Shown: positions 5,090 through 64,000 of the stretch, piece after piece | Layout of the letters: each line of letters begins with the position of its first letter | Numbering within the stretch: position 1 is the stretch's first letter | IMG/VR virus record: IMGVR_UViG_3300028610_000987 | Location: 1-64,000 of that record | Origin: a virus | DNA length: 64,000 bases | Direction: 5' to 3' (one strand) | Program-made: the position numbers and the translations under genes | The notes under the pieces: model-generated | Told to the model about the DNA's origin: nothing | Databases searched by the model: none | What the model saw: the letters and a program-made list of their open reading frames with translations, nothing else

Positions 5090-5418
5090 TTTTTCCGCGC
5101 CTTAAAAAATATGTCAGCCTCAACCGGAGCGCCTTCACCATCGTCAACATCGAAAATCATGTCGTCGTTAGGAGCACCCGGAGCAAATTGGCCAATGACT
5201 TGTTCTACGTCTGAATATGAACCACAAGTCCCACATTCTACCACCACTCTCGACAACACCTTAGCTTTGGTGTTTCCTTTGATCGCAATCAGTTGCAAAC
5301 ACAGCAATTCTTGCCCACAACCATTACACTTGAAATAGACACGACCATTGTCCACTAACCCCTTTAGCGGTCGATTTTCTCTACCGACTTGTTCTACCCG
5401 CAACTTAGGATTCTCCAT
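5086..5418 (-). CDS. zinc-ribbon protein, unknown
   Basis: 110 residues with CNGCGQ and CGTCGS pairs (about 31-34 and 62-65), a zinc-ribbon spacing. The TAATG junction joins it to the FmdB-like gene upstream. Acidic C-terminal tail ends in KARKK. Confidence 0.7.
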   Translation of the reverse strand: MENPKLRVEQVGRENRPLKGLVDNGRVYFKCNGCGQELLCLQLIAIKGNTKAKVLSRVVVECGTCGSYSDVEQVIGQFAPGAPNDDMIFDVDDGEGAPVEADIFFKARKK

Positions 5419-5834
5419 TACTCCACCTTTCCCTCTCGAATGTATTTTCCTGGATTGTTCAATATCTTCTTGTCAATCTTGCCATCTCTCCAGAAAGGTT
5501 TACCACTTTTGTTCTTTCCTCGGCCTAGCTTGTCACCCAGCTTAGGTTTCCTTCGCTTGTCATTTTTGACCGTTCTTGTCCCACGACACGGATTCTCCGT
5601 ACCCTTTACTACCACAGCCGCTCCTGGCCCTATCAACTTCATCAATTTGGATTTACCGCACTCTGGACAATCCTTGAGCGGTTCTGCTAACATCGAGTGA
5701 AAAGCCTCAAATTCGAACCCACATTCTTCACATTCGTAATCGTAGGTTGGCGTGATGCACCCCCTTTGTAACGATCTTTTTGACTCCGGGATAGAACAAC
5801 ACGTCAGGAAGCTTCCTTCTCTTAAGCATAACAT
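5418..5834 (-). CDS. FmdB-like zinc-ribbon protein
   Basis: The segment PTYDYECEECGFEFEAF followed by CPECGKSKLMKLIG is the FmdB-type zinc ribbon, small proteins often called regulators but of uncertain role; a basic tail of about 60 residues follows. Family members begin immediately before PTYDYEC, yet the nearest in-frame ATG is 28 codons upstream and has no spaced ribosome site. The true start may be a non-standard codon; see findings. Confidence 0.65.
   Translation of the reverse strand: MLCLREGSFLTCCSIPESKRSLQRGCITPTYDYECEECGFEFEAFHSMLAEPLKDCPECGKSKLMKLIGPGAAVVVKGTENPCRGTRTVKNDKRRKPKLGDKLGRGKNKSGKPFWRDGKIDKKILNNPGKYIREGKVE
5728..5829 (-). CDS. possible 33-residue basic peptide overlapping the FmdB-like gene
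   Basis: A short reading frame in another phase from the FmdB-like gene starts at an ATG six bases after AAGGA, just downstream of promoter 5886-5914, and encodes a Lys/Arg-rich peptide beginning MLKRRKLPDV. It may be a genuine small gene or a leader that sets translation of the overlapping gene. Confidence 0.35.
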   Translation of the reverse strand: MLKRRKLPDVLFYPGVKKIVTKGVHHANLRLRM

Positions 5835-5885
5835 TCCTTTTTTTCGTGTTTTCTGGGATCAGGATATCTATCATGATGATACCTC

Positions 5886-5914
5886 ATTATACGTCCAACT
5901 CGGCCTTTTGTGCC
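5886..5914 (-). promoter_or_regulatory. phage promoter, shared family (copy 1)
   Basis: On the minus strand GGCACA, 17 bases, TATAAT, with GACG directly before the -10 box. The same arrangement recurs at 16969, 30111 and 31583. It would drive the small genes to its left. Confidence 0.6.
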
Positions 5915-6483
5915 ATAGAAATCGTATCTATTTCAAAAGTTTTTTTAGCAAATACCCCGAGACACTTACGATGTTTGTGGGTACAGCGGCCTTTTTTCAC
6001 TTCTTCGTGTATCTGCTCTTTGATGGCATGTATAGTTTCGGGTGAACGTTTCCCAACCCTCTGAACGGCAGCGGTGATAAGACTGAGCATACTTCCTCGT
6101 CTCATGAAGGCGCGTATCAGGAGAAGTCCTGCGGCGACGAATATGAAGACTATGACACCGGTCCCAACAACCACCCATCCAGCCCCACCATAATTTATGG
6201 TTTCCGCTTGTACGCTTTTTCTCCATAGGGAGAGTTCTTCGGCAACTTGGTTGGTCTGTTCGATCCTATTGTTGACCTGTTCTATTTTTTCAGCAACAAC
6301 TGAACTGTTGGCCTTCTGTTCGACAAGCTTCTCCATCTTTCCCATATCGTTGCGGATACCCTGGATGTCGGTCTTGATTGCGTCAGGAGCAACACACCCT
6401 GGCACGACGCAAAAGAGTAGGGCTAAGAAGATAGCCGCTTTCGCATTTCTTTGTTTCGTTGCTTTCTGGTTTTTTGCTCGCAC
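5887..6483 (-). CDS. lipoprotein with a second membrane span
   Basis: 198 residues from a GTG nine bases after GGAG; an ATG 24 codons upstream would put extra charged residues before the signal. A signal sequence (AIFLALLFCVVPGC) ends in a lipobox Cys; then a coiled-coil segment (about 35-95, NNRIEQTNQ) and a membrane span (GWVVVGTGVIVFIFVAAGLLLI) follow. Such an architecture fits an envelope-spanning protein; a spanin or superinfection role is possible but unproved. Its start overlaps the RNase H gene end by 61 bases. Confidence 0.65.
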   Translation of the reverse strand: MRAKNQKATKQRNAKAAIFLALLFCVVPGCVAPDAIKTDIQGIRNDMGKMEKLVEQKANSSVVAEKIEQVNNRIEQTNQVAEELSLWRKSVQAETINYGGAGWVVVGTGVIVFIFVAAGLLLIRAFMRRGSMLSLITAAVQRVGKRSPETIHAIKEQIHEEVKKGRCTHKHRKCLGVFAKKTFEIDTISMAQKAELDV

Positions 6484-6887
6484 TTTTCCGCTCTCCTTTC
6501 GAATACTGCGTTGACCAAGGCATCTGCTCGTTTGTTTTGGTTCCGTGGTACCCATTTCAGAGTATAGAATTCGAATTTGTCCAACAGATCAAGAACATAG
6601 TCTCGATGCGCTCTTAGCTCTGTTTTGTCGGCTTTGAATGCTCCTGTCAGTTGTTTGATCACAAGCTGGCTGTCTCCGATGATATGTATGATCTTGACGC
6701 CATGTTGAAGACTGCCTTTCAATCCAGCAATGAGCGCCCTGTATTCTGCAATGTTGGATGTTCCCGTACCACACGTTCTGTTGCCAGATTTTAACACTTC
6801 ATTTTCGTCTAGCATATCCACAAGAAGATAGCCATAGGCCATCTGCCCTTTTCTAATTCCTCCGTCGAAGTACAGGGTCGCTTCCAT
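6423..6887 (-). CDS. ribonuclease H (type I)-like
   Basis: 154 residues with the RNase H fold acidic residues: YFDGG (D8), AEYRALI (E), GDSQLVI (D) and NKRADALVN (D). The enzyme would degrade RNA in RNA-DNA hybrids, for example replication primers. The GTG start of the next gene lies within its basic C-terminal tail. Confidence 0.85.
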   Translation of the reverse strand: MEATLYFDGGIRKGQMAYGYLLVDMLDENEVLKSGNRTCGTGTSNIAEYRALIAGLKGSLQHGVKIIHIIGDSQLVIKQLTGAFKADKTELRAHRDYVLDLLDKFEFYTLKWVPRNQNKRADALVNAVFERRAEKCEQKTRKQRNKEMRKRLSS

Positions 6888-6890
6888 GTA

Positions 6891-7580
6891 CTATTTGACC
6901 CCCTTAATGTGTAGATGTGCAGTTTTGTGTACATTATTTTCTTGCATATAGACAACATTCTGGAAATGTGTTCCTATATCGTATCGTAGGTAGATAGAAA
7001 ATCCATATCGTCCAAGGTAGTCTGAAAGTTCATTCTCTGATGGTTCTCCTACTCGTCTCGGCTGAATACTTACTTCCAGATTGATCCATTTTACTCTCCC
7101 TGATCCTAGTAACTTGTGACCACCCTTGAGTGCTTCTAACTCAGAACCTTCTATGTCCATCCACAGAAAAATATCTTCAGGAAACTTCAACACTTCATCA
7201 AGATGATCTAGTGTTGTGCAACAAACGATTCCTTTACTGCATGTTGTTTTTTGTTTGTATGACCACTTACCTACCCATCGATCGTCAGGAGCGAGCATAC
7301 TGGATTTACCCTTGCTTTTTCTGACCATAGAAAGTATTTTGAGACATGGGGTACTCCATAATCCCCATGGGTATATTTTACCTGGATATTTAGAAGCTCT
7401 TTCTCTGAATATGTTTATATGTGGTTCAAGACCTATTATTCTCATCTTCGGCCATCGAGCTTGAAATACTTCAGCCTCGTTGTGGGGTACAGGACCAACT
7501 CCAATGTTTAACAAAGTCTTTGGCTCAATTTCAGCACAACTTTCCAACATTTCGTCTGTTGTCATTTTGTTCGTAGGCAT
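6891..7580 (-). CDS. FkbM-family methyltransferase-like protein
   Basis: 229 residues. LLNIGVGP near the N-terminus is the SAM-binding loop and LWMDIEGSELEALKG is the hallmark segment of FkbM O-methyltransferases. The substrate is unknown; phage FkbM enzymes are thought to act on sugars or nucleic-acid-linked groups. Start overlaps the upstream stop (TGATG). Confidence 0.75.
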   Translation of the reverse strand: MPTNKMTTDEMLESCAEIEPKTLLNIGVGPVPHNEAEVFQARWPKMRIIGLEPHINIFRERASKYPGKIYPWGLWSTPCLKILSMVRKSKGKSSMLAPDDRWVGKWSYKQKTTCSKGIVCCTTLDHLDEVLKFPEDIFLWMDIEGSELEALKGGHKLLGSGRVKWINLEVSIQPRRVGEPSENELSDYLGRYGFSIYLRYDIGTHFQNVVYMQENNVHKTAHLHIKGVK

Positions 7581-8533
7581 CAGAATGGAGTCTCATCGTC
7601 ACCAATTTCAGTCTTGGCACCAGGGCACATTTCACGGAAGAAACATCTCGTACAGGCGTGTTCATTGTCTGTTCGTTGAAAGTAATCAGGATTGTCTTTG
7701 TTCTCAAAGGCTTCTGTCAACATTGGGTACTCACTCCTGATTATACCCGCTTGTCTTTTCATATGCTGCATTGTCACTTCTAGGTATGGAGTAGCCCGAT
7801 CGCCGAGTTCTGCATAAGTTGCTAGATAAACAGGTATGATGATTATGTTCTCTGGTTTGTCGGTCCATCCTTGCTTGAGCGCATACATTGAATATGTCGT
7901 GAGTTGATCGATAACACTATCGCTAACGCGACCAGTTTTCCAATCCAAGAGATATATCTTACATTGATACCTGAAGCCACAGTCAATCTTAAGGGTAACT
8001 TCTTCCCCCGTATTGAGTTGGAATTTTTGGAAATCTTCTATTGATAACCAGTCTTCTTTTTTGAGACCCCGAAGAATTTCAAACAAAGGCATTTCATAGA
8101 ATGCCTTCAGTGATCGAAGAACTTTCTGTTTGAATTCTTTCAACCTTTTTGGATCGAGTTCTTCCTGGTAGAAGTGTTCTGCTAGATTGACATTTTTGGC
8201 GGGGCTATCTTGCCATCTTTTGTTTTTGGATTGCTTCCACCCTCGCCTCAGTCGTTGCACAGCAGCTTCTTGTGCTTGTTTTAATGTCCACCATCGACCT
8301 GTATTTCTGCCATCGTGTATTACTTCTTCGATAGTGTCGTGGACAACGCTCCCTATAAACATGGGAAGATTGGTCATCTTCTTGAGCATGTATGCCCGTT
8401 GGCACTCTTGTGGGGCACTGCCAAGCCAGCCTTCCCAACTTTGGAAGTACGTCAAATAGTATTGCCACGCACATTCTCTGAAAGTCTTGACTCTTGAGTT
8501 TGACCATGCGTAGGTCAGTTCAATTTTTCCCAT
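7580..8533 (-). CDS. PD-(D/E)XK nuclease with Cas4/AddB-type iron-sulfur cysteines
   Basis: 317 residues. An early Cys (FRECAWQYY, about 21), the nuclease core LKIDCGF...LLDWKTG (about 180-200) and a C-terminal CTRCFFREMC cluster match RecB-like exonucleases of the Cas4/AddB group, where four cysteines hold a 4Fe-4S cluster. Probably a DNA exonuclease for recombination or host DNA breakdown. Complete length for a single-domain member. Confidence 0.85.
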   Translation of the reverse strand: MGKIELTYAWSNSRVKTFRECAWQYYLTYFQSWEGWLGSAPQECQRAYMLKKMTNLPMFIGSVVHDTIEEVIHDGRNTGRWWTLKQAQEAAVQRLRRGWKQSKNKRWQDSPAKNVNLAEHFYQEELDPKRLKEFKQKVLRSLKAFYEMPLFEILRGLKKEDWLSIEDFQKFQLNTGEEVTLKIDCGFRYQCKIYLLDWKTGRVSDSVIDQLTTYSMYALKQGWTDKPENIIIIPVYLATYAELGDRATPYLEVTMQHMKRQAGIIRSEYPMLTEAFENKDNPDYFQRTDNEHACTRCFFREMCPGAKTEIGDDETPF

Positions 8534-12409: not shown

Positions 12410-13170
12410 GGTAGTATTTCCGCATTTTCGTGTATCAGATTCTTAACCGCCGATGTGGAGATGGCTTCGGCCAAGTGTGGTGCTACATGACCTTCCTCGA
12501 TTAAACCAACACGGAATGGGATGCCTATTAGATAATAGTGATTGCCATATTCTTTGAACAAACCACCACCACTTGCGCCAGGGACAATCTGTGCCGTGTT
12601 GGCATAGATTATAACATCTACTTCTCCCATCAGTTCTGTATGGATCAGAGATATAATACCGACTGTTGGTCCAGGAAAATCATCTTTCAGATTGCATCCT
12701 ATAGCGAATACTTCGTCGAAAACACCTATTTTATCCAGCATTTTTTGAGTTGCGAATTTTGCAACAGAAAGCACTTCTGAGGAACTGAAGGCCAACAACG
12801 ATATGTCCACTTCTCTGTTTTCTACGATGACTGATGCTGGATATGATTCATAGCTATTCGCGGTGTGATCGAAAGTCCAGACTATGCATCCTTTGTCGAC
12901 TTTTTTATTCGGCGACTTTGGGTAAATGACCCATCTACCTTTTGTGATGTGTTCGTTTGTCAACACGGAGTATCTGAAAACACCATTCATTTCGGTTGCG
13001 GTCTTGCCTATTATTGTCCCAGAGCCGTTCGTAGTTTCTGCCGAGACGAACACTGATGTGTAAAGCATCTCTCGACATTTCGTCTCACCATCAGATGCGT
13101 AGGAAGCTACTGAAACAAGACACAGCAACAAGATGCTAACCAAGAAATTTGTTTTCGGCATAGGTAACAT
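12406..13170 (-). CDS. secreted trypsin-like serine protease, copy 1
   Basis: 254 residues. Signal peptide (FLVSILLLCLVSVASYAS), then a chymotrypsin-fold protease: GSGTIIGK...LTNEHI (His), REVDISLLAF (Asp) and PGASGGGLF (Ser). Exported phage proteases of this type are unusual; it may act in the periplasm or on the envelope. It follows a related gene after 3 bases, so the pair arose by duplication. Confidence 0.8.
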   Translation of the reverse strand: MLPMPKTNFLVSILLLCLVSVASYASDGETKCREMLYTSVFVSAETTNGSGTIIGKTATEMNGVFRYSVLTNEHITKGRWVIYPKSPNKKVDKGCIVWTFDHTANSYESYPASVIVENREVDISLLAFSSSEVLSVAKFATQKMLDKIGVFDEVFAIGCNLKDDFPGPTVGIISLIHTELMGEVDVIIYANTAQIVPGASGGGLFKEYGNHYYLIGIPFRVGLIEEGHVAPHLAEAISTSAVKNLIHENAEILP

Positions 13171-13173
13171 ATC

Positions 13174-14025
13174 TTACTCCTTGCTTACTCTGTTTTCTTC
13201 TAAGAAATTTTTTGCTGTAGATAGAGAAATTGCATTCGCTAAGTGTGGCATAATATGGTGATCCCGTGTTACTGCCGCTCGTAATATGATGCCTATAAGA
13301 TAGTAATGTCCGTCATATTCCACGAAAAGCCCGCCGCCGCTTGAGCCAGAAGCGATTTGTGATGTTGTTCCATATAGCATCCATTTTACTTGTCTGGTGA
13401 CTCCAGAAATAATATCAGATATGATACCAAATGTTGGCGTTGGACGCATTCCTAGTTGGCACCCTAATGCAAAAACGTTATCAAAAACTCTGATACTTTC
13501 TAGTATCTCATCCGTAGCTAATAAGGCGACTGTTATTGGGTCGTCTGTTTCAAAGGACAATATAGCCAAGTCTAAATAGGGATTTTCTGCAACAACTTTG
13601 ACTACATATCTCTTTTGTTTCTGATTTTTGTGATCAAATACATCTATGCTGCATCCTGTGTCGATGGGTAATATGATTAGCTTTCCTGTCAAGAAATCAG
13701 CATCAGATGGAAACATCATTCTTGTCTGGGTTACGTGTTGGTTGGTCAATACTCTATATTCAAATAAGTTCTTTGTTCCTGTGTCGAGTTTTTCATATAT
13801 AGTTCCAGAACCTAATGCTTGACGTGTTTCTACTCGGACGATAGGGTCTCGCATTTCTCGTTGTTTTATTGCTATCTGATCAACTTTTTGGATTTCGTGT
13901 AAGTTACATTGTTTTTCTGGGACACTGGAAATTGCCGGTTTATTTTCTGCGGCGAGAAAGATAACTCCAACAAACAACATCAAGACCAAACAAATAGGGG
14001 TAATTCTACTCGGCAAAGAAACCAT
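13174..14025 (-). CDS. secreted trypsin-like serine protease, copy 2
   Basis: 283 residues with an N-terminal signal or anchor (ICLVLMLFVGVIFLAA). Triad positions: GSGTIYEK...LTNQHV (His), YLDLAILSF (Asp), ASGSSGGGLF (Ser). Same order and spacing as the adjacent copy at 12406-13170 and about 30 residues longer at the N-terminus. GGAGG lies just before the ATG. Confidence 0.8.
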   Translation of the reverse strand: MVSLPSRITPICLVLMLFVGVIFLAAENKPAISSVPEKQCNLHEIQKVDQIAIKQREMRDPIVRVETRQALGSGTIYEKLDTGTKNLFEYRVLTNQHVTQTRMMFPSDADFLTGKLIILPIDTGCSIDVFDHKNQKQKRYVVKVVAENPYLDLAILSFETDDPITVALLATDEILESIRVFDNVFALGCQLGMRPTPTFGIISDIISGVTRQVKWMLYGTTSQIASGSSGGGLFVEYDGHYYLIGIILRAAVTRDHHIMPHLANAISLSTAKNFLEENRVSKE

Positions 14026-14935: not shown

Positions 14936-15439
14936 CTATACCTTGCATTTGACCCTCATTTTTTCTAGTGCTTTGTTCTTAACCCTACATAGGGTTGATG
15001 GAGCAATTCCATTCTCACTAGATATTTGTCTCACAGTCTTATGGTTAAAAAACAGTTCCACGATAATACATCGTTCTTTTGCCGTAAGACACGAAAGACA
15101 TTCCTCCACCATTATCCCAGTATCCATATTATATTCGCTGGTCAACGTGTCGCTCGTGTCCTCCAGAAACGATGTTTGTACCCTCCCGAACCTTTTTTCA
15201 ACATCCCTCATGTGTCTAAAGGCACCCAGCAGTCTGTAATGGAAAAATGTGATGAATGAACCAATATTCTGGTAACAAATCATACACTTCAACAATTCGA
15301 CACGAGCCTGAGATAAGCATTCGTCCATCTGCGAGGGCTTTAGCCCGACCACCGAAGCCATTTTCTGAACCATTGGTTCGTATTGCTTGAGAGCTATCCT
15401 AAAATACGTATCTGTTATTCTTCGTTGCGGCACCATCAT
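14936..15439 (-). CDS. sigma-70-like RNA polymerase factor
   Basis: 167 residues. The C-terminal part (LTAKERCIIVELFFNHKTVRQISSENGIAPSTLCRVKNKALEKMR) is a region-4 helix-turn-helix, and the middle (ECLSQARVELLKCM...FITFFHYRLLGAFRHM) resembles region 2. The ATG at 15439 is chosen since AAGGAG lies 9 bases upstream and it shares bases with the ClpP stop (TAATG); an ATG 15 codons earlier has no site. It may redirect host RNA polymerase, for example to the recurrent promoter family or the repeat array at 62-64 kb. Confidence 0.7.
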   Translation of the reverse strand: MMVPQRRITDTYFRIALKQYEPMVQKMASVVGLKPSQMDECLSQARVELLKCMICYQNIGSFITFFHYRLLGAFRHMRDVEKRFGRVQTSFLEDTSDTLTSEYNMDTGIMVEECLSCLTAKERCIIVELFFNHKTVRQISSENGIAPSTLCRVKNKALEKMRVKCKV

Positions 15440-16080
15440 TACATGAAACTCCTTGTCACAGCACGTTCTTTTTCTGCCGTCCATATACCGTCGATGAGAC
15501 CAATATTTACCGCCTGCTTAGGTTGCATCCATGTTGTTTCCGACATTATACCGGTAAGCTTCTTTTTGGTTATTCCCATCTTTCGAGCTAATACCGCTAT
15601 CTTTTTGTCGTAATCTAATCGTGTATAATCAAACATCTTTTTGTGATGCTCTAGACAACTTGCTGGATCGTGTATTGTGACAGAATGCAACATCAAAGAA
15701 GAATTCGGTGTTGCATACCTATATCCCTTTGTACCGAAAGCAGCTATCATAGCTCCCATCGAATGTGCTGTCCCTCTGACGATAGTAACAACAGGTCCGG
15801 TACATGATAACATCTGATCTATGATTGCGTAACCAGCATAAAGACTTCCACCTGGGCTGTTGATGTACATGTAGATTGGTTCGTTCATTATCGCAAATAC
15901 TTGAAGACAGCTACAGATATTAGCAGAGGCTATATCGTCGATTTCACCAACAACTAAAATTCGACGAGTACGACGAAGGAAATCTTCAACCACAGCGTTG
16001 AGGCCCAACGGAAGATTCTGGTCTGGACACTGACATTCTTCTTCTTGAGGATCGATCGGTTCCTTTTTACCTTGCAGCAT
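15439..16080 (-). CDS. ClpP-like serine protease
   Basis: 213 residues. INSPGG, the nucleophile in TAHSMGAMI (Ser107) and the histidine in LMLHSV (His132) match ClpP. At the place of the usual catalytic Asp the sequence reads MSETTW, where Thr seems to replace Asp. A Cys-rich N-terminal extension (ECQCPD) replaces the usual propeptide. ATG chosen with GGAG seven bases upstream. Could degrade host proteins with host ClpX, or be a phage maturation protease. Confidence 0.85.
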   Translation of the reverse strand: MLQGKKEPIDPQEEECQCPDQNLPLGLNAVVEDFLRRTRRILVVGEIDDIASANICSCLQVFAIMNEPIYMYINSPGGSLYAGYAIIDQMLSCTGPVVTIVRGTAHSMGAMIAAFGTKGYRYATPNSSLMLHSVTIHDPASCLEHHKKMFDYTRLDYDKKIAVLARKMGITKKKLTGIMSETTWMQPKQAVNIGLIDGIWTAEKERAVTRSFM

Positions 16081-16948
16081 GTTCTTCTCCAAAAGGATGA
16101 CAACGTTCGTGTAGACATTTCAATTTGTCTTGACTAACGCACAAGTACGACTGAGTTGTGGATAAATCTTGATGTCCAAGAAGAAATTGGATCAATTCTA
16201 TGTCGACTCCGCGATCCATAAGGTCCGTAGCACAACTTCTACGAAGTAAATGGGGTGTGGTGTGTTTAACACCAGCAGTATTAGATGCTGCCCTTAACAT
16301 ATCCCCAACACTTCTTCGAGTAATTCTCGATCCATCAAGCTTGACGAAAACAGCATCAGTGTCCGAAACGCGATCAATATTGATGTAATCGCATATCGCC
16401 TTCATACATTTTTCGGTCGTTGGAACAATTCTTTCCACACGACCTTTGCCCATGACAAGTATGTCTCTTCGACTTGTGTTTATATCTTTCAAATCAAGGT
16501 TGCACAATTCAGACACTCGCAGTCCACTCCGATACAAGATCAATATAATAGCGATGTCGCGGCGAATGTTAACGGCTCTAGATGCTGGTAAACGCTTTTC
16601 CACAGCGGAAACAATAGCATCCACATCATCAGACTCAATCGCATCAGGTGTTCTCCTGTCTATACGAATAGGATCGATCATCTTATGGATATTCTTATCA
16701 AGACGACCGATACCAACCATAAAATGACACAAACAACGGACAGACATACACTTCCGACGCACGGTGGTAGCCTTCATTCCTTGTGACTGAAGACTTCGGA
16801 TAAATGTATCGATCAATCGAGATGTCAACTGTTCGTCCCCGATAAAATCAAGAAATTCTTGTACATCTCTTTTGTACGCAGAAAGCGTCTCCGTGGACAG
16901 ACCAAGCTCTGTGTTGACATATCTTTCGAAGTCGAGTATTATGTTCAA
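16067..16948 (-). CDS. tyrosine recombinase (XerC/D-like)
   Basis: 293 residues. N-terminal SAM-like domain, then catalytic residues: SGLRVSEL (Arg), HLLRRS (His-x-x-Arg), LLGHQDLSTTQSYL (His and nucleophile Tyr). Could resolve genome multimers or integrate the phage; no attachment site was recognised. TTG start, 8 bases after AAGGA and just below promoter 16969-16997. Confidence 0.88.
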   Translation of the reverse strand: MNIILDFERYVNTELGLSTETLSAYKRDVQEFLDFIGDEQLTSRLIDTFIRSLQSQGMKATTVRRKCMSVRCLCHFMVGIGRLDKNIHKMIDPIRIDRRTPDAIESDDVDAIVSAVEKRLPASRAVNIRRDIAIILILYRSGLRVSELCNLDLKDINTSRRDILVMGKGRVERIVPTTEKCMKAICDYINIDRVSDTDAVFVKLDGSRITRRSVGDMLRAASNTAGVKHTTPHLLRRSCATDLMDRGVDIELIQFLLGHQDLSTTQSYLCVSQDKLKCLHERCHPFGEEHAAR

Positions 16949-26962: not shown

Positions 26963-27973
26963 CTAGAGAATTACTCTACGTTTCAGTTCGCCAATAAATT
27001 TCGATCCGCTTTCACCTTCTGCCGCAGCTTTGCTCCTGATTGCCTCTAAGGCATCGGATACACTATTCTTAACCGTAGCAGACTCAAAGTCTTGTGGACG
27101 GATACCTTCGTCAAGGAATGTGTTTCTGAAGTCAGACAGCATCTTTTCGATATCTTCGTCCTCGAATATGTTCATGGAACGGAATCTGTCGACATACTTT
27201 CGGAAACATGAGATAGATTTTGGAGTCAACTGCTTGCTTTCTTCTTCGTCTCCGAATGGTTGTCCGTTGATTCTGGCAGTCATTAACTCACAGAATCGAA
27301 CGGTTTCGTCTCTCATGGACGTTACGTAGTCTCCGACAAATTCTCCAACGGCGTCTCTCATCTGAATACGTAGTTCTGTTTCTCTTTCTGTCTGCACCTT
27401 TTGCTTGGCAACCACCTCTTCGACGCTGGTTTCTTCTATAGACCCAAGACCTGCTATCTGGAATGTGTACCAATCAAACTTGAAATGTTCTCTCAGGGCT
27501 TTCGGATTGCGGGGATAGTGACCTTTCAAACACTTATCCCAAAAATCTGGGTGTGCCGATTTGACAGCTTGTGTCAGGTCGTCGAACCGCAAGATGAAGC
27601 TGTCGACCCTCTTGAAGAATTCTTCTTTTAGTTCTTCTATTTCCTGCTCTACGCTCAGCAACATGGTGGATGGAACAAAGTGTGCGTTTGCTATCCCGAA
27701 CGGCACACTCCATCGTTCGAGCGCCTTACGAGCACGTTGTTCAATCTGGGTCAGAGCCTGAAGTTCCGTCTTTGGAACCATCAATTTCCTTCCTAGATTG
27801 ACAATTTCTTTGGGGAGTGCATCCGGATCATATCCGACACGGACAAGATCGGCGCGGGTCAACATTTTCCTTCCGCTCCACATTTTTATACTCAGGTTGA
27901 CTAGACAACCAACGTCGAAAAGATTGATAGTGTCTTTATCAACCTTTGGTTGGTCTTTGGTCACTGTAGCCAT
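26963..27973 (-). CDS. DUF3150-like protein
   Basis: 336 residues. VNLSIKMWSGRKMLTRADL at 30-50, PKEIVNLGRKLMVPK, and the helical RARKALERWSVPFG segment fit DUF3150, a family usually encoded next to MoxR-type or other AAA ATPases in phages and plasmids. Here it directly follows the Ycf46-like ATPase by 18 bases, so it is a likely partner or substrate adaptor of it. Confidence 0.65.
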   Translation of the reverse strand: MATVTKDQPKVDKDTINLFDVGCLVNLSIKMWSGRKMLTRADLVRVGYDPDALPKEIVNLGRKLMVPKTELQALTQIEQRARKALERWSVPFGIANAHFVPSTMLLSVEQEIEELKEEFFKRVDSFILRFDDLTQAVKSAHPDFWDKCLKGHYPRNPKALREHFKFDWYTFQIAGLGSIEETSVEEVVAKQKVQTERETELRIQMRDAVGEFVGDYVTSMRDETVRFCELMTARINGQPFGDEEESKQLTPKSISCFRKYVDRFRSMNIFEDEDIEKMLSDFRNTFLDEGIRPQDFESATVKNSVSDALEAIRSKAAAEGESGSKFIGELKRRVIL

Positions 27974-27991
27974 CTTTTTCTCCTTTTCAGC

Positions 27992-29548
27992 TTAGCTTAA
28001 TACGACCTTCCGTTTGTTTGCTTGCGAATTCTCTTCCGAACACGGATTGGCGGGTTTGGCATGTAGCTTGCACCATTCCCTGATAATCTCGATACGTTGT
28101 GCCTCTGTTTTGGATAGAGGAACAATCTCTGAAGTAGCTTGAGCTATGTGTTTTCCTGCTAACTCAACATTGTTCGCGAATGACATTTTGAGTGCGAGTT
28201 TGATGATTTGTTCGATATCTGCTCCCGTATATCCATCGGTAAGTTTGGCGACTTTGGTGATGTCGTAATTTTCGGGTTTTCTGTCCCTCCGAGATAGATG
28301 GATACGAAAGATTTCTTCTCGTTCATCAATTCTCGGAACATCTAACCCAAATATCTCATCGAATCTACCTTTGCGACAGAATTCGGGTGGCAAGGATTGT
28401 ACTTGATTGGCGGTGGCGACAACGTAGACAGGAGAATTCCTATCGCTTAGCCATTTGAGGAACGTTCCGAATAACCGTTTAGACGATCCACCGTCATGAT
28501 CTCCAGAGCCGCCGAAACCTTTTTCAACCTCGTCGAGTTGCAAGACGCAAGGAGCTATGCCTTCCATCATCTTAATGGCTTCTCTCATGTTCTTTTCTGA
28601 CTCACCAACGAATTTGTTCATAAGATTGCCAACGTCCATGGCAATAAGGGGAAGTCCTAGTTCGGATGCAATCGCTACAGACAGTAGTGTTTTTCCGCAC
28701 CCAGGTATTCCGACCAATAAAATTCCTCGTGGGAATTCTATTCCGTAATCTCTTGCTTTTTGTGTGAAGCACGGTTTGTCTAGAGAGATGTGTTGTTTTA
28801 GCGCGTCGTATCCTCCGACATTATCCATACCACCTTCTGGGGGTTCTATATATGTCAATAATTCTGATGCACGAATAATCCCAGCTTTTTCGTCGACTAT
28901 CGTTTGAACCGCATCTAAGTTCAAGTCTTTATGTTTACGGAGAGCTAGTGCCACGCGGTCGGTTGTTTGTTGTGATGTCATACCCCTACAGGCATCTACC
29001 ACTTGTGGAACGATATCTTCGTCGAGTTCGAAGTCTGAACCATCGGATTTCTCAACACCATCACACACAAACTCAATGCGTTCTTTGATTTGATCGCCAT
29101 CCGGTAAATCAAACTCAATTCGTGTTATATCGTGCAGTAGTGGCTTCGGTGTGTCAAAGTCTGGTCCGACGAAGACGATTGTTTGGTTAACTGACGATAC
29201 GATTTTCCGTAGTTGATCCAACCAGCTTATCACAACATCATAAGTTGGATAAGTTTCGTGTTTCAGGTATCCGCCAAAGTCGTTAAGGATAAGGATTATG
29301 TCGTTGGGGAATTTCATGATTGCTTCAAGGTGTTTTTCGACCGATGCTTCAGGCTTCAAGTCGCAAACAGATACTTGATTTTTATCAACCCATCCCTGCG
29401 CAATTGTCCAGATGTAAATTTGTCGGTCTATGTTTTGCGCAACTTCTTCGATGGAAGCTATAGCCCTGTCTTTTTCGAATGTATCTACTCGTAGCAGTGC
29501 ATGGCCAGAGCAGATGTAATTGCTAATTGCCTCATTGAAATTTTGCAT
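27992..29548 (-). CDS. Ycf46-like AAA+ ATPase
   Basis: 518 residues. N-terminal domain (1-235) with HALLRVDTFEKDRAIASIEE and RQIYIWTIAQGW like Ycf46; AAA module with Walker A GIPGCGKT (280-287), Walker B CVLQLDE (334-340), sensor VVATANQ and arginine finger region CRKGRFDEIF (391-400). Predicted protein remodelling ring. ATG at 29548 chosen for AGGAG six bases upstream; an in-frame start 41 codons earlier would overlap the previous gene. Confidence 0.85.
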   Translation of the reverse strand: MQNFNEAISNYICSGHALLRVDTFEKDRAIASIEEVAQNIDRQIYIWTIAQGWVDKNQVSVCDLKPEASVEKHLEAIMKFPNDIILILNDFGGYLKHETYPTYDVVISWLDQLRKIVSSVNQTIVFVGPDFDTPKPLLHDITRIEFDLPDGDQIKERIEFVCDGVEKSDGSDFELDEDIVPQVVDACRGMTSQQTTDRVALALRKHKDLNLDAVQTIVDEKAGIIRASELLTYIEPPEGGMDNVGGYDALKQHISLDKPCFTQKARDYGIEFPRGILLVGIPGCGKTLLSVAIASELGLPLIAMDVGNLMNKFVGESEKNMREAIKMMEGIAPCVLQLDEVEKGFGGSGDHDGGSSKRLFGTFLKWLSDRNSPVYVVATANQVQSLPPEFCRKGRFDEIFGLDVPRIDEREEIFRIHLSRRDRKPENYDITKVAKLTDGYTGADIEQIIKLALKMSFANNVELAGKHIAQATSEIVPLSKTEAQRIEIIREWCKLHAKPANPCSEENSQANKRKVVLS

Positions 29549-29549
29549 C

Positions 29550-29813
29550 TTAACTCCTTTTTTTGTTGAGGGATTCCATTTTTTCGACGGTAGTAGCCAA
29601 GTTGTCCACAATGTGTCGAGGGACCATGACGAAAGCTGTAGGAATAGAAGGATTGTAATCTTCGACACCAAGCAAAGAATGAGCTATGGCAAGAAGCTTT
29701 TCTCGTTCTCTCCATATACAACTTGGGCATCTCCAACCTTCTCCATACATATAAAGTCCACATACAACTGTACAAGTATCGCACTTGATGTTTTTGACTT
29801 CATCAGGATGCAT
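29550..29813 (-). CDS. zinc-finger protein, unknown
   Basis: 87 residues; CDTCTVVCG and CPSCIW form a zinc ribbon, followed by a helical tail. AAGGA is six bases before the ATG. Immediately upstream of the Ycf46-like gene. Confidence 0.7.
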   Translation of the reverse strand: MHPDEVKNIKCDTCTVVCGLYMYGEGWRCPSCIWREREKLLAIAHSLLGVEDYNPSIPTAFVMVPRHIVDNLATTVEKMESLNKKRS

Positions 29814-42251: not shown

Positions 42252-42563
42252 TCATCTTCCTTTCGGTGGGTCAGGACGAAAATATTCCTTTTCGCTATCT
42301 ACTAGTTCATCTTCGAGAGCAGTGCCGATGAACCCGTCTACAAACTCAATTTCATATGCTATCGGATGCCCAGTCTCGCCTCTTTCTTTCAAGGTTTGAA
42401 TATTCCACCCGTCGTTGTCTACGAATTTCAACACAGTGACCTTCTGATGGGAATGATACCACAACTCAGCATCACAAGACGATGCGGATTCTTCACAGTG
42501 ATATTCGAAGAACAACTCTTGACCGATCGTTCTGACATCTTCTGTTGTTGGTAATGGGATCAT
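42252..42563 (-). CDS. hypothetical protein
   Basis: 103 residues, acidic, beta-rich (ELWYHSHQKVTVLKFVD). TGATG-type junction with the next gene. Confidence 0.6.
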   Translation of the reverse strand: MIPLPTTEDVRTIGQELFFEYHCEESASSCDAELWYHSHQKVTVLKFVDNDGWNIQTLKERGETGHPIAYEIEFVDGFIGTALEDELVDSEKEYFRPDPPKGR

Positions 42564-42787
42564 GATTGTTTCCTCTTAACTACTAACCACCATCCGGGAT
42601 TTTTCCCTTGTATAATCCATGCTTCCGCCACCATGTTTTCCGTTTTACATGTGGGATAGTAAAAACACCATGCTCCAACACAACCCTGTTTGTATGCGCC
42701 AGGATAGCTTTCTCTGACAATGCGTAATGCATCCTCAATGGTGTTTACTCGTTGTTTTTTGCCGTCTAGGTTAAAGATTTCTCGCAT
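42560..42787 (-). CDS. small protein, paralogue of 51394-51606
   Basis: 75 residues. The frame ALRIVRESYPGAY...GAWCFYYP...MVAEAWII...WWLVVK repeats that of the protein at 51394-51606. Start chosen at the ATG after GAAGGG. Unknown role. Confidence 0.6.
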   Translation of the reverse strand: MREIFNLDGKKQRVNTIEDALRIVRESYPGAYKQGCVGAWCFYYPTCKTENMVAEAWIIQGKNPGWWLVVKRKQS

Positions 42788-43208
42788 AGGCCCTTCCCGA
42801 TTCTGTGACTGAAAACCCGCCATCTCCATCTGATATTAGGAAACCCCTATGGCGAAGAGTCATTACGTCGTCCTCGTTGGCCACCCTTGCAGAGCCCCAC
42901 CAGCAAAATTCTCCGTTGTGTTCGCGTACTGTGTTTTCGTTGCTGAACTCTTCCAGCATCTGTTTGGCAGCAGACGACAGGGGTAGATGTCTTTCTGTGA
43001 ATTCGTATACGGTGAGTGGAGATTGTATCTCTTGTTGGATATCGAAACACTTGCCACACGCCTCTGCGCCGATCCATTCTCCAGACCAATCGTTGGGTAG
43101 TATCATACCTGCATGGACAGGTATTCCCTTGCTGTTGTCTGTGTAAACGCCACACACATAGCACTTTGCCGTCCGACACTGAAGATCGATTACAAGAATG
43201 TCTGACAT
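42771..43208 (-). CDS. hypothetical zinc-binding protein
   Basis: 145 residues with CYVCGVYT and ACGKCFD Cys pairs and a C-terminal winged-helix-like end (VMTLRHRGFLISDGDGGFSVTESGRAYA). Confidence 0.65.
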   Translation of the reverse strand: MSDILVIDLQCRTAKCYVCGVYTDNSKGIPVHAGMILPNDWSGEWIGAEACGKCFDIQQEIQSPLTVYEFTERHLPLSSAAKQMLEEFSNENTVREHNGEFCWWGSARVANEDDVMTLRHRGFLISDGDGGFSVTESGRAYARNL

Positions 43209-43299: not shown

Positions 43300-43372
43300 T
43301 GCCCCTGCGGAGATTCGAACTCCGGTTTGTGGCTTGAAGGGCCACCGTCCTGGTCCACTAGACGACAGGGGC
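43300..43372 (-). tRNA. tRNA-Glu (anticodon TTC)
   Basis: Acceptor GCCCCTG/CAGGGGC, D arm with TAGTGG, anticodon stem GTGGC/GCCAC around CCTTCAA, T arm with GTTCGAATC. All stems pair, and the discriminator base is A; the CCA end is not encoded. Confidence 0.95.
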
Positions 43373-50872: not shown

Positions 50873-51382
50873 TTAGGCTGCAATAGACCTTTTCCATCCA
50901 CGGGCCGCACCACGATTACGATTTCTGGCACGCAGACTTTTTTTCTCGACAGCTTTCTTCTCAGCTACCACCATCGGATCACGATTGGCATCAGACACCT
51001 CTACACGAGACGCCAAACTCCATTTACTACCATCAACCCTCCGCGCCCTTCTATTAGTCGATGCTCTCGCCGACTTGTTCCGAACCAACGTGTGCCTCTT
51101 CTTCTTGAATTGTTCGTCTAGTCCGATTTCCATCTTGACTTCGTCGACCTGCCCTTTACGTCTTGTCGAGAACCCCATGGTTCCATCGCCGCATTTGACC
51201 TTTTGCCACAAAGGTCCGCTGAATTTCTTGCCGCCCCTGACCGACACACAATACTCGGACCGAGCGAACAGATTGTCTTCCGCCCACTGGCGAGAGTCAC
51301 CCTCAAGTCGATTGAATCCATACCCTTCCGCTCCAGTTTTGTTTGGTTTCTTTTGGTCTTTGCAACATGAACAAGGTTTCAT
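50873..51382 (-). CDS. basic protein with CSCC start
   Basis: 169 residues, more than 20 percent Arg/Lys, C-terminus almost all basic. MKPCSCCKDQKKPNKTGAEGYG start; a Trp-containing middle. ATG after AAGGAA. Possibly nucleic-acid-binding. Confidence 0.65.
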   Translation of the reverse strand: MKPCSCCKDQKKPNKTGAEGYGFNRLEGDSRQWAEDNLFARSEYCVSVRGGKKFSGPLWQKVKCGDGTMGFSTRRKGQVDEVKMEIGLDEQFKKKRHTLVRNKSARASTNRRARRVDGSKWSLASRVEVSDANRDPMVVAEKKAVEKKSLRARNRNRGAARGWKRSIAA

Positions 51383-51393
51383 GATCAAATTCC

Positions 51394-51606
51394 TTACAGA
51401 GGTTTCACAACAACCCACCACGTATCATCTTCTTTGACCCAAGCTTGTGCTACCAACTTTTGTTCTTCGAAGAAGTTCCACACACCTTGGAATCTTAACC
51501 TTGTGGTTTCTGGGTACCTTCTCGCAATGACGTTCTGGACATTATCGAAACCGACGATACACCCAGTGTCACCACTCATCGGAGTGAAATCTTTTGTCTC
51601 ACACAT
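51394..51606 (-). CDS. small protein, paralogue of 42560-42787
   Basis: 70 residues: VIARRYPE...GVWNFFEEQKLVAQAWV...WWVVVK repeats the frame of the earlier gene. Unknown. Confidence 0.6.
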   Translation of the reverse strand: MCETKDFTPMSGDTGCIVGFDNVQNVIARRYPETTRLRFQGVWNFFEEQKLVAQAWVKEDDTWWVVVKPL

Positions 51607-51615
51607 GGCAACTTT

Positions 51616-51792
51616 CTACTCCAGCAGGCGACGACGGAATTGTTCCCACCTGGCGTATGTGGTGGTACATCCCATAATGGCACCAGATACCCACATACTC
51701 GTGTCTCCCAGAAAATTGCAGATAACCAAGTGGAGTACCACTAGGCACGCCATTCAAAGTGTTAGATCAATGATGAGAAGAATCGTTTTCAT
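51616..51792 (-). pseudogene. small membrane-protein frame split by an in-frame TGA
   Basis: GGAG, then MKTILLIIDLTL, TGA, immediately ATG and 45 more codons in the same frame (MACLVVLHLVICNFLG span). Either a broken 58-codon gene, a readthrough site, or an opening 12-codon leader coupled to a second start at 51753. Confidence 0.45.
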
Positions 51793-56269: not shown

Positions 56270-56422
56270 TCACGTCACCGCACAGTATGCCAGAATGATC
56301 AGACAGACCACGATTATCGGCCACATGAGAATCCGCAGTGCAATACAACAGGCAACGAATGCCGCAAAACAACATGCCCCTAGAGCCACGGCTACTGTGA
56401 AGAATGTTTCTAAGAATTTCAT
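56270..56422 (-). CDS. membrane protein, Cys-rich
   Basis: 50 residues, nearly all hydrophobic (FFTVAVALGACCFAAFVACC, then WPIIVVCLIILAY). GGAG seven bases before the ATG. Confidence 0.6.
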   Translation of the reverse strand: MKFLETFFTVAVALGACCFAAFVACCIALRILMWPIIVVCLIILAYCAVT

Positions 56423-56505
56423 TTTCGTCTCCATCCTCCGTTCGCTTTCCACATGAAAAACGCCGAAAGTATTAAACAACATATGGTCCATTCTTCGTAT
56501 GACAC
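56419..56505 (-). CDS. 28-residue membrane peptide, GTG start
   Basis: MSYEEWTICCLILSAFFMWK then NGGWRRK. AAGGAG lies seven bases before the GTG; ATGA overlap downstream. Has a mutated second copy at 56167. Confidence 0.55.
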   Translation of the reverse strand: MSYEEWTICCLILSAFFMWKANGGWRRK

Positions 56506-56514
56506 TTTGTCTCC

Positions 56515-56670
56515 TTACGGCAATATGATATCCAGCGCTGCCATCACCTCTCCGAACCCGCCTGAGAAACCCAGTGCAACCATTCCGCATCCGGGACACT
56601 TGACGATGTTCGGCGGTGTGAAGTTTTCCTCGGTCGAGAACGTTGTCTGACATCCAGGACATGTTTCCAT
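56515..56670 (-). CDS. zinc-ribbon protein
   Basis: 51 residues with CPGCQTTF and KCPGCGMV. GGAG nine bases before the ATG. Confidence 0.65.
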   Translation of the reverse strand: METCPGCQTTFSTEENFTPPNIVKCPGCGMVALGFSGGFGEVMAALDIILP

Positions 56671-56684
56671 TCGTGTCCACTCCT

Positions 56685-56906
56685 TTACACTACGTCGTCA
56701 AGTTCCATTTCCTCGATCAGCTTAGCGGATTGCATGATCAACACCTTGACTCCGGTAAGTACCCCAGCGATCAGCATGGCAGCTTCTTTTTTTGCTGCAT
56801 CTTCGTCGTCGATCACAGGTTTTTCCCCGCTACGATCCAACAACGCCTTGATTACCGGGTTGATGAACTCATTGTGACCTTCCAACAGTTGCTTTATCGC
56901 ACTCAT
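56685..56906 (-). CDS. hypothetical helical protein
   Basis: 73 residues, helical, acidic end. Unknown. Confidence 0.6.
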   Translation of the reverse strand: MSAIKQLLEGHNEFINPVIKALLDRSGEKPVIDDEDAAKKEAAMLIAGVLTGVKVLIMQSAKLIEEMELDDVV

Positions 56907-56909
56907 TTC

Positions 56910-57089
56910 TTACCTCCATCCGGGAGACAACGCTACTGGGTCAATCACTTGACTGATAACATCGCCGCTCAGGAAATAGATTCGAGATGTCTCATACGAT
57001 TCACGCACCGCTAACACACGAGTACCGTGTAAATTATGGTACGGTTGGAGTTTTGATGGCTGATTGATCCACATACGTTCTACGGTCAT
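56910..57089 (-). CDS. hypothetical protein
   Basis: 59 residues (MTVERMWINQPSKLQPYHNL start); GAGG before the ATG; ends ATGA-overlapped with the upstream gene. Confidence 0.6.
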   Translation of the reverse strand: MTVERMWINQPSKLQPYHNLHGTRVLAVRESYETSRIYFLSGDVISQVIDPVALSPGWR

Positions 57090-61364: not shown

Positions 61365-61697
61365 CTAGACCTTGCCCAAATCCTTGAACGCCTTGCGCGT
61401 CGCGCCGGTTGTCGACCTGAGTCCCATAAGGGTCTCTGCGATCGTGGCCGCGTTATCGGACCCGAAACCCAGTTCACGGTCGGGGGTGTACTGACCACCC
61501 TCTACGACCTGACTTTCGAGCGATTCCCACGCTGCGGTCAGACCTGCGATGGCGTCATCGACGTTATCGTACCCCGAGCACGCATCGACAATTCGCTTGT
61601 GCTGACGATACGTGACGGCGTTTGCCAAAAACGCATCCTGACCGAACTTCTCGGACGTTCCTTGGGCATCATTCTTGACAGCGGTGTCAATGCTCAT
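61365..61697 (-). CDS. hypothetical protein in the repeat region
   Basis: 110 residues (MSIDTAVKNDAQGTSEKFGQ start); ATG seven bases after GGGAG. Helical, ends basic. A host-like promoter lies at 61918. Confidence 0.7.
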   Translation of the reverse strand: MSIDTAVKNDAQGTSEKFGQDAFLANAVTYRQHKRIVDACSGYDNVDDAIAGLTAAWESLESQVVEGGQYTPDRELGFGSDNAATIAETLMGLRSTTGATRKAFKDLGKV

Positions 61698-61917
61698 ACG
61701 TTTCTCCCGTATTGACTTGCCGCCCCAAGAGCCGAGACTACACCGTCCTGACTTATGGGACGGGCCTAGTAGACTCGTTATCGGAACATCACTTATTCGG
61801 ACCAACCTTGCGTCGGCCACTTATTATCGGTCCCTCGCGGGACTTCGGCTTGCGTCCGAGAATAACGAACCGGACCTAGCGTCCGTTTTCGTTCTCTCGT
61901 TTTTCATCCTACATAAT

Positions 61918-61946: not shown

Positions 61947-62675
61947 GCGCGGATTGAAAATAAATTTTCGGCCCTGAGAGCCGTCAATCGTCGATATTAT
62001 CGCACTTTGTCCGATAATGCATGATTTGATTTACGTCCGCTTTTTGAGATCATTTATCGGTCAATTGCCTATAATATCCCGTTTATCGCGCCCTAGAAGC
62101 TGATTCTTATCGGAAAGTCCTATAAGATGTGTTACGCGAGTCCTATAATGCGCGAATTATCGGCAAAAAGCGTCCTATAACCGTTAAAATCGCGATATTT
62201 TCGGTCGATTCCGATAAAAAAGCACGCCCTATAACGAAATCACGGTTAATTGGGTCAAAAACCATGATATTATCACACGTACATAACGATTCCCGGAACG
62301 GTCCGATAATCCCGCCCCGCGCTACGTCCGATAACCCTCTGGGGGGAGGAAGGTCCGATAAGCAAGACGAGGAAGAGTCCGATAACCATTTGTCCACGAA
62401 CGTCCGATAACACAGGGACCGATAACGAAAAACCCGCTTGGCCCGATAACGGGCATGGCGGTCCGATAACTGCTTTGTGGCTGGTCCGATAACCCATTCT
62501 GCGCCATACGATATTCTCGGCCCTATCCGATAAGTATTCGTGTCCACGCATACAAACCAAACTGTTATGTGCCACGTCCGATAATCGCCCACGGCCCAAC
62601 GTCCGATAATTTTCTGGTCTGCGCAAAGAAAAAGGTCCGATAATTCGGACCCCTGATCTTTTTAGTTATCACCCC

Positions 62676-62933
62676 TTAAAGGATTGGTCCCATAATGTGC
62701 CGATTCGCATACTCCCGATAACCGCCACAAAGAGCGATAATCTTCCGAGTTGGAAGGACCGATAACACCCATTCCAGCGTCCCGACCGCACAGTCCGATA
62801 ACTCCAAATGGTCCTGGGTATGGTCCGGTAACCTGTCTCGCAGAATTCCGTCAATTACCGGACGTTCCCACAACGTCCCGAAGGCTGGTCCTATAATCAG
62901 GAAATCATCGGCTGTGGTCCTATATCTACACAT
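62676..62933 (-). CDS. hypothetical protein
   Basis: 85 residues (MCRYRTTADDFLIIGPAFGT start); GGAG six bases before the ATG. Its codons contain four array motifs, so part of the sequence is shaped by them. Confidence 0.5.
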   Translation of the reverse strand: MCRYRTTADDFLIIGPAFGTLWERPVIDGILRDRLPDHTQDHLELSDCAVGTLEWVLSVLPTRKIIALCGGYREYANRHIMGPIL

Positions 62934-63001
62934 GGTCTACTCCTTGTTATCGGCCCAAGAGGGGCGAGGTTCCGATAACCCCACCCGCTCTCCGTCCGAT
63001 A

Positions 63002-63370
63002 TTACATGCCAGCGGTTCCGATAAGCTCGCCCGGTGTCTTGATTATAGGACGACCCGAACTGATTTGGTCCCATAATCTCAGGTCCACTTTGCCGACATT
63101 ATCGGCGTCGTCAACGTCCGAAAACAACAGACAGCCGAAGTACCGATAATCGTTCGCCAGCCGTCTTTTCAGTGCTGCTTTAGCCCGATATTTCTTTGTT
63201 GCGAAGCTGCACATCCCATAAAGTGCGCTATGGAAAGGTCCGAGAACTTGGCACAACCACCCATTCTGTACTCGGACGTAGTTGTATCGGACTGTCTTTT
63301 TTCGGGCGCTCTTGAACTGGAGCACTGTGTCCGATAATACGACTCGACCTGTCTGTCCCATAACTGCCAT
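63002..63370 (-). CDS. hypothetical protein
   Basis: 122 residues, basic, QFKSARKKTVRYNYVRVQNGW; GGGAG before the ATG. Includes motif copies within codons. Confidence 0.6.
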   Translation of the reverse strand: MAVMGQTGRVVLSDTVLQFKSARKKTVRYNYVRVQNGWLCQVLGPFHSALYGMCSFATKKYRAKAALKRRLANDYRYFGCLLFSDVDDADNVGKVDLRLWDQISSGRPIIKTPGELIGTAGM

Positions 63371-63390
63371 GATTGACTCCCGTCCTATAA

Positions 63391-63702
63391 TTATTCCGAC
63401 AATCGCCTCGCGATTATCAGACGTTCCCGCTTGCTGAACTTCCGATAACGTAATCGGGCCACCAAGCTGTTGTTAGTCCCATAACGTGCGCTCGCCCACA
63501 GGCCGAGTCCGATAAATCCATAAACTGCTACTTCAAAAGAATGCGCCATCAACCAGAGTCCGATAAAGATGATGATCGGAAATGCGACACATCCCATTAT
63601 CCATCCGATAATAATTGTCTCGCCTCCGGGCGCTTGACTATCGGATTTAACGTCCGATATTTTGCCGCTTGCCACTAGGTCCGAATAGTCGATGAGTCCC
63701 AT
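63391..63702 (-). CDS. membrane protein
   Basis: 103 residues; spans at about 30-52 and 55-72 and a basic cytoplasmic tail (RLRYRKFSKRERLIIARR). AAGGG before the ATG. Motif copies encode Ser-Asp and Ile-Gly pairs. Confidence 0.65.
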   Translation of the reverse strand: MGLIDYSDLVASGKISDVKSDSQAPGGETIIIGWIMGCVAFPIIIFIGLWLMAHSFEVAVYGFIGLGLWASARYGTNNSLVARLRYRKFSKRERLIIARRLSE

Positions 63703-64000
63703 AATTTATTCCCTTTCGTGCTTACACTGAAGTATAGGATACCTGCGCCGGAATGTCGAGCCGATAACCTATAAATCCAAAAAACTTTCTTCGTCCTATA
63801 ATGTGCCCTTTTCTGTCCTGCTGCCCCATGCGTGCATTATATGCCACGCCCAATAATCCTCACGCCCCATAACTTCGCCGCGCTACAAAACCGCGATTCT
63901 GAGCCCCAATCCGAATACTTATCGGCCACACATACGCACGCCAAACGATTACCGGCCACGTCCTATAATAACTCACGGCCCTACGGTCCGATAATGTTCT
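63703..64000. other. repeat-rich non-coding end of window
   Basis: Contains about eight further array motifs and no supported gene up to the window edge. Confidence 0.5.

Follow-up and report, generated by a model that had tools for sequence, protein, structure and literature searches.

The Xer recombination system, which to our knowledge is nearly universal in bacteria, acts in chromosome dimer resolution at the dif site, and elements that integrate at dif already make use of it. Among phages, the filamentous CTXphi and VGJphi are Xer-exploiting mobile elements that carry dif-like sites. The plasmid Xer sites cer and psi consist of a core site with accessory sequences, and at sites such as cer the accessory role is assigned to other proteins. 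In phage P1, genome circularisation and multimer resolution are served by Cre-loxP. Repeated binding sites of another kind are found in mycobacteriophages, whose stoperators are dispersed genome-wide and bound by the phage repressor.

The stretch of DNA analysed here (hereafter the window) comprises the first 64,000 bases of the 119,625-base virus record IMGVR_UViG_3300028610_000987. The motif GTCCNATAAY occurs in it 26 times as an exact match on either strand, against an expectation of 0.67 and a maximum of three matches in 100 dinucleotide-preserving shuffles, the comparison that the original prediction had proposed. The block spanning positions 61,980 to 64,000 contains 25 exact sites, 24 on the plus strand and one on the minus strand, with G (13), T (7) or C (5) at the fifth position. 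Allowing up to one mismatch raises the count to 48 sites (43 on the plus strand), one per ~42 bases. The prediction had described a motif recurring about every 40 bases, varying among G, T and C at its fifth base and present in genes as well as spacers. Density and variation are confirmed by these counts, and the sites do fall both inside small minus-strand ORFs, in various frames, and in intergenic positions. The array extends beyond the window, to ~66.4 kb of the record (~4.4 kb in total), and holds 47 of the 49 exact sites of the whole record, 45 of them on the plus strand and two on the minus strand. Equal density elsewhere, which had been named as grounds for abandoning the prediction, is not what the record contains: the other ~115 kb harbor two exact sites, both on the minus strand.

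The array presents variable rather than equal spacing and no repeated unit longer than the motif, and the mean similarity of site flanks, measured on the near-identical record L130, is 0.25, which corresponds to chance level. Since the flanks are unrelated and the sites lie in differing frames and between ORFs, tandem duplication cannot explain the array, and the earlier assertion that it is neither a tandem repeat nor a CRISPR array holds. Repeats can indeed yield matches to a three-site pattern, because 50 of 52 bacterial and 26 of 78 viral matches of this type (see below) failed the test for unrelated flanks. For the window locus, however, a tandem or coding repeat, or chance, is refuted by the chance-level flank similarity and by the shuffles, and has a negligible probability as an account of the motif. 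The suggested likeness to stoperators could not be sustained either. Stoperators, too, are short repeated sites that lack symmetry and favor one direction, but they are scattered across the genome, whereas the window array is restricted to one block, with 47 of 49 exact sites confined to 4.4 kb.

Several small genes, all on the minus strand, accompany the array. At its left edge, F1 (61365..61820, likely start at 61697) encodes a small conserved protein with array-adjacent homologues in 11 records of the window's kind (group 1, see below), including the window's own. A search of INPHARED with F1 returned no match, and its predicted fold produced a single PDB match (E 6.8). Within the array, F2 (63002..63370) encodes a small conserved protein present in nine distinct group-1 records, and several half-sites occupy equal aligned places across the homologues of this gene. 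The predicted fold of F2 (mean pLDDT 63) had no match with E <0.001 and showed a weak dsRBD-like order (best VIA Z 4.9). F3 (63391..63702) encodes a small membrane-like protein with homologues in L123, L044 and L210, and its start codon falls in a C-variant site with a ribosome-binding-like sequence upstream. A further small ORF (62676..62933) has a homologue in G042/L204. The C variant of the motif includes a minus-strand start codon (RTTATGGGAC), and between positions 61980 and 66400 of the record five of ten C sites present an upstream ribosome-binding-like sequence and open ORFs of 25-119 aa. A start-associated sequence was nonetheless rejected as a full account of the motif, given that the ATG occurs in the C variant only and that the ribosome-binding-like sequence accompanies just those five of ten C sites. 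Elsewhere in the window, we observed a DUF3150 gene adjoining an ATPase-like gene (26963-29671, minus strand), both phage-encoded, and minus-strand tRNA genes at 43300, 48777, 50350 and 60303, for Glu, Met and, twice with identical anticodon, Asp.

Across 19 array regions, 357 exact sites were collected, with G (220), T (69), C (52) and A (16) at the fifth position. Among one-mismatch sites, C3, A6 and A8 are seldom changed (14, 22 and 9 changes, those at A6 mostly to G), and substitution of C4 by T is frequent (51). Beyond the motif there are weak preferences only, for C or G at position 0 and for A or T at position -1. Distances between same-strand pairs fall below 14 bases in three cases, versus 45 cases at 14-16 bases, and in 11 arrays the periodic signal of pair distances at 10.5-11 bases is stronger than in each of 200 jittered controls. 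We do not take this as a clean helical period, because a signal at 8.75 bases also lies above all these controls. Taken as a whole, the spacing pattern looks like that left by a protein that binds double-stranded DNA and covers at least ~14 bases; an RNA-level motif was ruled out by the occurrence of both orientations in the arrays of group 2 (see below). The proposal of a multi-site protein-binding array is thus upheld in its general form, by the 14-base minimum and the non-random spacing, but not in the specific kinds that it named, stoperators and -10 boxes.

In the latter case, the array would supply many -10 promoter elements for recognition by a sigma factor of the phage. Seven of the 25 exact block sites read CCTATAAY, and the window encodes a sigma-70/ECF-like ORF (14,936-15,484, minus strand) whose score of 42.1 bits falls just short of the 42.9-bit cut-off. 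These seven T-variant sites are, however, the only ones that the -10 reading fits; the fifth base is mostly G (220 of the 357 sites in the 19 arrays), no conserved -35 element is found in the flanks, and transcription from plus-strand sites would be antisense to the small array genes. In addition, the two exact sites outside the array are not ahead of the right-hand genes, since both are on the minus strand. We consider this explanation very unlikely.

The GTCCnATAAY motif is very probably an Xer arm, the XerC-binding arm of dif, to judge from its letters. In one passage of a published dif/Xer survey, five of seven delta-proteobacterial dif sites have a XerC arm of the form GTCC[CGT]ATAA, with a variable fifth base as in the array (PMC2731167). 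The same passage gives the arm as GTCCCATAA in Desulfovibrio vulgaris and Geobacter sulfurreducens, as GTCCGATAA in Anaeromyxobacter and Myxococcus xanthus and as GTCCTATAA in Syntrophus, while the arms of Bdellovibrio and Desulfotalea deviate from the GTCC type (PMC2731167). The printed dif arm of Myxococcus xanthus DK1622 is AGGTCCGATAAC. Genome searches identified GTCCNATAA-N6-TTATG in 102 of 199 Planctomycetota genomes, mostly as a single copy, and in 40 of 198 Desulfobacterota and 3 of 200 Pseudomonadota genomes. Since a reversed control pattern was present in 10 Planctomycetota, 27 Desulfobacterota and 26 Pseudomonadota genomes (counted by eye), these counts alone make a strong case for the Planctomycetota and a modest one for the Desulfobacterota. 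The Desulfobacterota case is decided by the letters, as 24 of 30 loci continue into TTATGTnAA. The GTCCnATAA arms of the array are identical, as 11-base XerC arms, to the printed and searched host dif arms. A search for arrays of the E. coli-type XerC arm TGCGCATAAY gave three loci, none with unrelated flanks.

A GTCC-type dif points to the Planctomycetota or the former delta-proteobacteria rather than to most Pseudomonadota, and from the arm type we infer that the hosts of these phages are probably members of one of the first two groups. The arm type may therefore hint, from sequence alone, at the host of phages available only as metagenomic contigs. The DnaA box has a layout, TGTGnATAA, that resembles GTCCnATAAY; an array of DnaA boxes was rejected, as PF08299 exceeded its cut-off in none of the 48 array records and produced a single weak match, in G021 (E 0.0145).

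The distribution of the motif was assessed with site-cluster patterns in viral contigs and in 84,980 bacterial species genomes. A two-site pattern returned at least 118 viral stretches, and a three-site pattern 78 viral and 52 bacterial stretches. The three-site loci were sorted by flank similarity and spacing, with no rows dropped; L186, L187 and L190-L195 were left out of another count as tandem-like. Arrays with unrelated flanks were identified at 52 of the 78 viral loci and 2 of the 52 bacterial loci. Both of the latter belong to Bacilli MAGs with a recombinase element, and neither a phage-type array nor an array-bearing prophage was found among the 52 bacterial stretches. A scrambled motif, CCTGnATAAY, matched at least 120 viral stretches, with unrelated flanks in none of the 120 matches listed. 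Whole-record counts in 47 virus records lie mostly well above those of the reversed pattern, with exceptions such as G031 (12 vs 6) and G010 (6 vs 4), in which the excess is weak. Some loci recur across duplicate or near-identical records (L130/G033 and the window's record, L204/G042, L083/G020, L213/G048, L468 and L469, L474 and L488), so that the numbers of loci are not numbers of independent lineages.

The array records can be sorted into three or more phage kinds that are unrelated to one another. Group 1, the window's own kind, has F1 in 11 records and F2 in nine. Group 2 is YuA-like and encompasses six records with many genes in common, among them G020, whose large terminase shares 53% identity with its counterparts in YuA and Sphaerotilus phage SN1. 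The third group is T7-like. In G023 the large terminase shares 34-37% identity with those of the phages listed as matches, autographiviruses among them, and the arrays of T7-like records are found close to the terminase gene and to a contig end. Eight cultured records (YuA, SN1, two autographiviruses and four carriers of DUF7178) contain one exact site in total. Two variations in array layout were also observed. The YuA-like arrays of G007, G015, G020 and G022 have a common block layout, in which two convergent half-sites enclose a GGGGAAAGGCCCC-like stretch, and at a contig end of G030 (L115, positions 4-199) eight half-sites with near-exact 23-base spacing form a locally tandem version of the array.

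Within the window array, a single candidate pairs a XerC arm with a TTAYGC arm. This putative dif-like core site lies on the plus strand at 62115..62142, and is composed of the XerC arm AAGTCCTATAA (62115-62125), the 6-base centre gatgtg (62126-62131) and the second arm TTACGCGAGTC (62132-62142). Seven of 11 group-1 arrays (those of the window record, L044/G011, G042, L027, L113, L123 and L210) each have a single TTAYGC arm at spacer 6, against one instance at all other spacers from 0 to 15 combined; the group-1 arrays of G014, L107, L115 and L094 have no such core. The second arm of the G011 core is as in the window, and its XerC arm and centre differ. Given that the group-1 second-arm consensus was derived from the same sites that it describes, it is the spacer distribution that constitutes the independent part of this evidence. 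In all seven group-1 arrays with a core, the XerC arm of the core is oriented like the majority of half-sites.

A similar picture emerges from six other arrays, five of them YuA-like (G007, G020, G015, G022 and G048) and the sixth that of G017, where seven instances of TTATG are placed 6 bases beyond a XerC arm, compared with four at the 15 other spacers together. The second arm is TTATGT in the five YuA-like cores and TTATGC in G017, as compared with TTAYGC in group 1. A 6-base centre is thereby found in 7 of 11 group-1 arrays and in all six others, in the cores only, the bulk of each array consisting of single arms. Across all 52 array loci, spacer 6 yields 14 matches in 13 loci, and the next best spacer six matches. 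Scored with a host-dif PWM, the five YuA-like cores reach 21.7-28.4 (shuffles <=14.3) and the G017 core 14.8 (shuffles <=6.0). The same PWM detected no core in the YuA-like record G043 and did not pick the window core, its best match in the window lying at 63,211 with a score of 15.3, against shuffles of up to 17.5.

The window also encodes a tyrosine recombinase (16067..16948, minus strand) matching TIGR02225 (XerD) with 223 bits and TIGR02224 (XerC) with 216 bits, under the respective equivalog cut-offs of 329.6 and 335. Judged by these scores, the protein is Xer-like and an orthologue of neither XerC nor XerD. Its alignment to solved XerD and XerA-type structures revealed that the catalytic residues R, K, H, R, H and Y are all kept. 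A PF00589 domain was identified in nine of 48 array records, the window's included, all of them 71-181 kb long, and no PF00589 gene was found in the other 39, many of which may be fragments. In a tree that also included E. coli XerC and XerD and 30 rows from Planctomycetota, the phage Xer proteins stand apart from these as one clade of ten rows, three of them identical, with support 100/99. The host part of this tree lacks resolution, one host row being only 39 aa long, and the tree revealed no XerC-versus-XerD ancestry for the phage proteins.

Presence of the recombinase was compared with the type of second arm. An Xer gene is encoded by five of the seven group-1 records with a TTAYGC core (G000, G011, G029, G032 and G046); none was found in the 40 and 77 kb of sequence of the core-bearing G042 and G005. 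The five YuA-like core records, with host-like TTATGT second arms, yielded no Xer gene, and neither did the 19.6 kb of G017. This pattern fits a division of labor in which a phage Xer protein would recognise the second arm and host XerC the array copies.

Arrays of the other dif arm, TTATGTnAAC, were identified as well. Ten of 33 viral loci with this motif (L477, L460, L461, L465, L468, L469, L472, L474, L484 and L488) have unrelated flanks and similarly short spacings, with, for instance, 28 sites in L477, 15 in L460 and 13 in L461. The eight loci read have a G+C content of 27-39% and one GTCC arm in total; no full site or core was detected in them above background, and PF00589 occurs in two of the ten records. 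Because such arrays exist besides those of the GTCC arm, the common theme may be that a single Xer arm is multiplied.

The reading of these data that we favor, with a probability of roughly one half, is that the array serves mainly in a phage Xer recombination module. The array would form a platform of Xer half-sites around one core site, with host XerC binding the arm copies. In the group of the window, the phage Xer protein would take the divergent second arm (TTAYGC), replacing host XerD, and in YuA-like phages host XerD would act on the arm of host type, TTATGT. The phage genome could then be circularised, or its multimers resolved, by recombination at the core, a role comparable to that of Cre-loxP in P1, with the array as an accessory region that loads XerC locally and imposes a single synapse geometry; it might also divert XerC from chromosomal dif. 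The cores, the uniform direction of group-1 arrays and the phage Xer genes favor such a module, as does a Bacilli element (L216, see below) in which recombinases of the same family adjoin this motif. The presence of a spacer-6 core in just 13 of 52 array loci stands against it, together with the failure of the host-dif PWM to pick the window core, the 39 of 48 array records in which no PF00589 gene was found and the lack of cores above background in XerD-arm arrays.

The scarcity of cores is what would be expected if the arrays acted instead as a sponge, the chief alternative, in which the ~50-100 half-sites of each genome, present in as many copies as the phage itself, draw host XerC off the chromosomal dif. 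Dimer resolution, or the excision and integration of rival elements that use dif, would then be blocked, and phage recombination would be secondary or absent. Most sites are single arms that could not recombine alone, the majority of array loci have no core, and the other arm is also arrayed, at 10 of 33 loci and with no core above background. Titration would not, however, require the uniform direction seen in group 1, and it leaves aside both the recurrence of dif-spaced cores within arrays and the phage Xer gene of nine of 48 records. We deem it rather unlikely as the main function; the recombination module and the sponge may also operate together. A broader scheme, which we put forward tentatively, holds that tailed phages of various unrelated types have turned multiplied XerC arms, or in other cases XerD arms, into sinks for host Xer, and that some lineages acquired an Xer protein of their own together with a second arm private to them, which put host XerC to use for the phage as well.

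A different possibility is that another phage protein binds the motif, with the array as an origin, a centromere or an operator and its likeness to dif a product of convergence. In G000, G011, G014 and G042 the array lies at the divergence of the gene arms and at the GC-skew minimum, and the cumulative minimum in the window's record falls at 66,084. This minimum is no independent sign of an origin, since the skew tracks gene blocks and changes sign with them within one arm. On top of a role in Xer recombination, the array may also work as an origin or a centromere. A candidate binder could be sought in DUF7178, the gene for which is located amid or next to array blocks in G045 and in the YuA-like phages. 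It was not found, however, in the group-1 records searched, four cultured carriers have at most one site each, and no protein family common to all groups was identified. Convergence, moreover, would leave the exact 6-base core unexpected, and we regard this explanation as improbable. DUF7178 (PF23802) genes were located at 6943-7572 in G007, 12472-13275 in G015, 56407-57027 in G020, 51157-51777 in G022 and 42525-43070 in G045, and the G020 protein has relatives in 77 of 50,697 INPHARED records.

If XerC does bind these arrays, the chromosome-segregation system of bacteria would be something that tailed phages regularly target or use, and if they act as Xer sinks, they would represent a new viral strategy controlling dimer resolution and all dif-using elements in the cell. 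They also raise the question of whether a repeated half-site is able to load or sequester a tyrosine recombinase.

Among the papers listed by literature searches, judged by title and abstract opening, none dealt with arrays of Xer half-sites. We found no described counterpart of an array-bearing, Xer-exploiting phage site, the nearest being the dif-like sites of filamentous phages and the accessory regions of plasmids. Chromosomal dif likewise combines a GTCCnATAA XerC arm of variable fifth base with a TTAYG second arm across a 6-base centre, but there is about one complete site per chromosome, whereas the phage arrays have tens of single arms and at most one core; the second arm of group-1 cores is TTAYGC, where the hosts examined usually have TTATGT. 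The L216 locus, one of the Bacilli MAG elements, encodes tandem tyrosine recombinases (414 aa, 320 aa and a third split over two ORFs), with GTCC[GA]ATAAY at 4,972-5,124 and 8,357-8,467. This element (4972-8467), which we take to be similar to a recombinase-in-trio (RIT) element, thus has the same motif at both ends flanking recombinase genes, but is 3.5 kb long with few sites per end and no dense array. CTXphi and VGJphi have a phage-borne Xer site in common with the array phages; they are small and filamentous, while the latter are large tailed phages with an array. Cre-loxP of P1 involves, as do some array records, a phage-coded tyrosine recombinase. As at cer and psi, a core adjoins an accessory region, but unlike that of these plasmid sites, the putative accessory region of the array phages is made of the recombinase's own arm, repeated over up to 4.4 kb.
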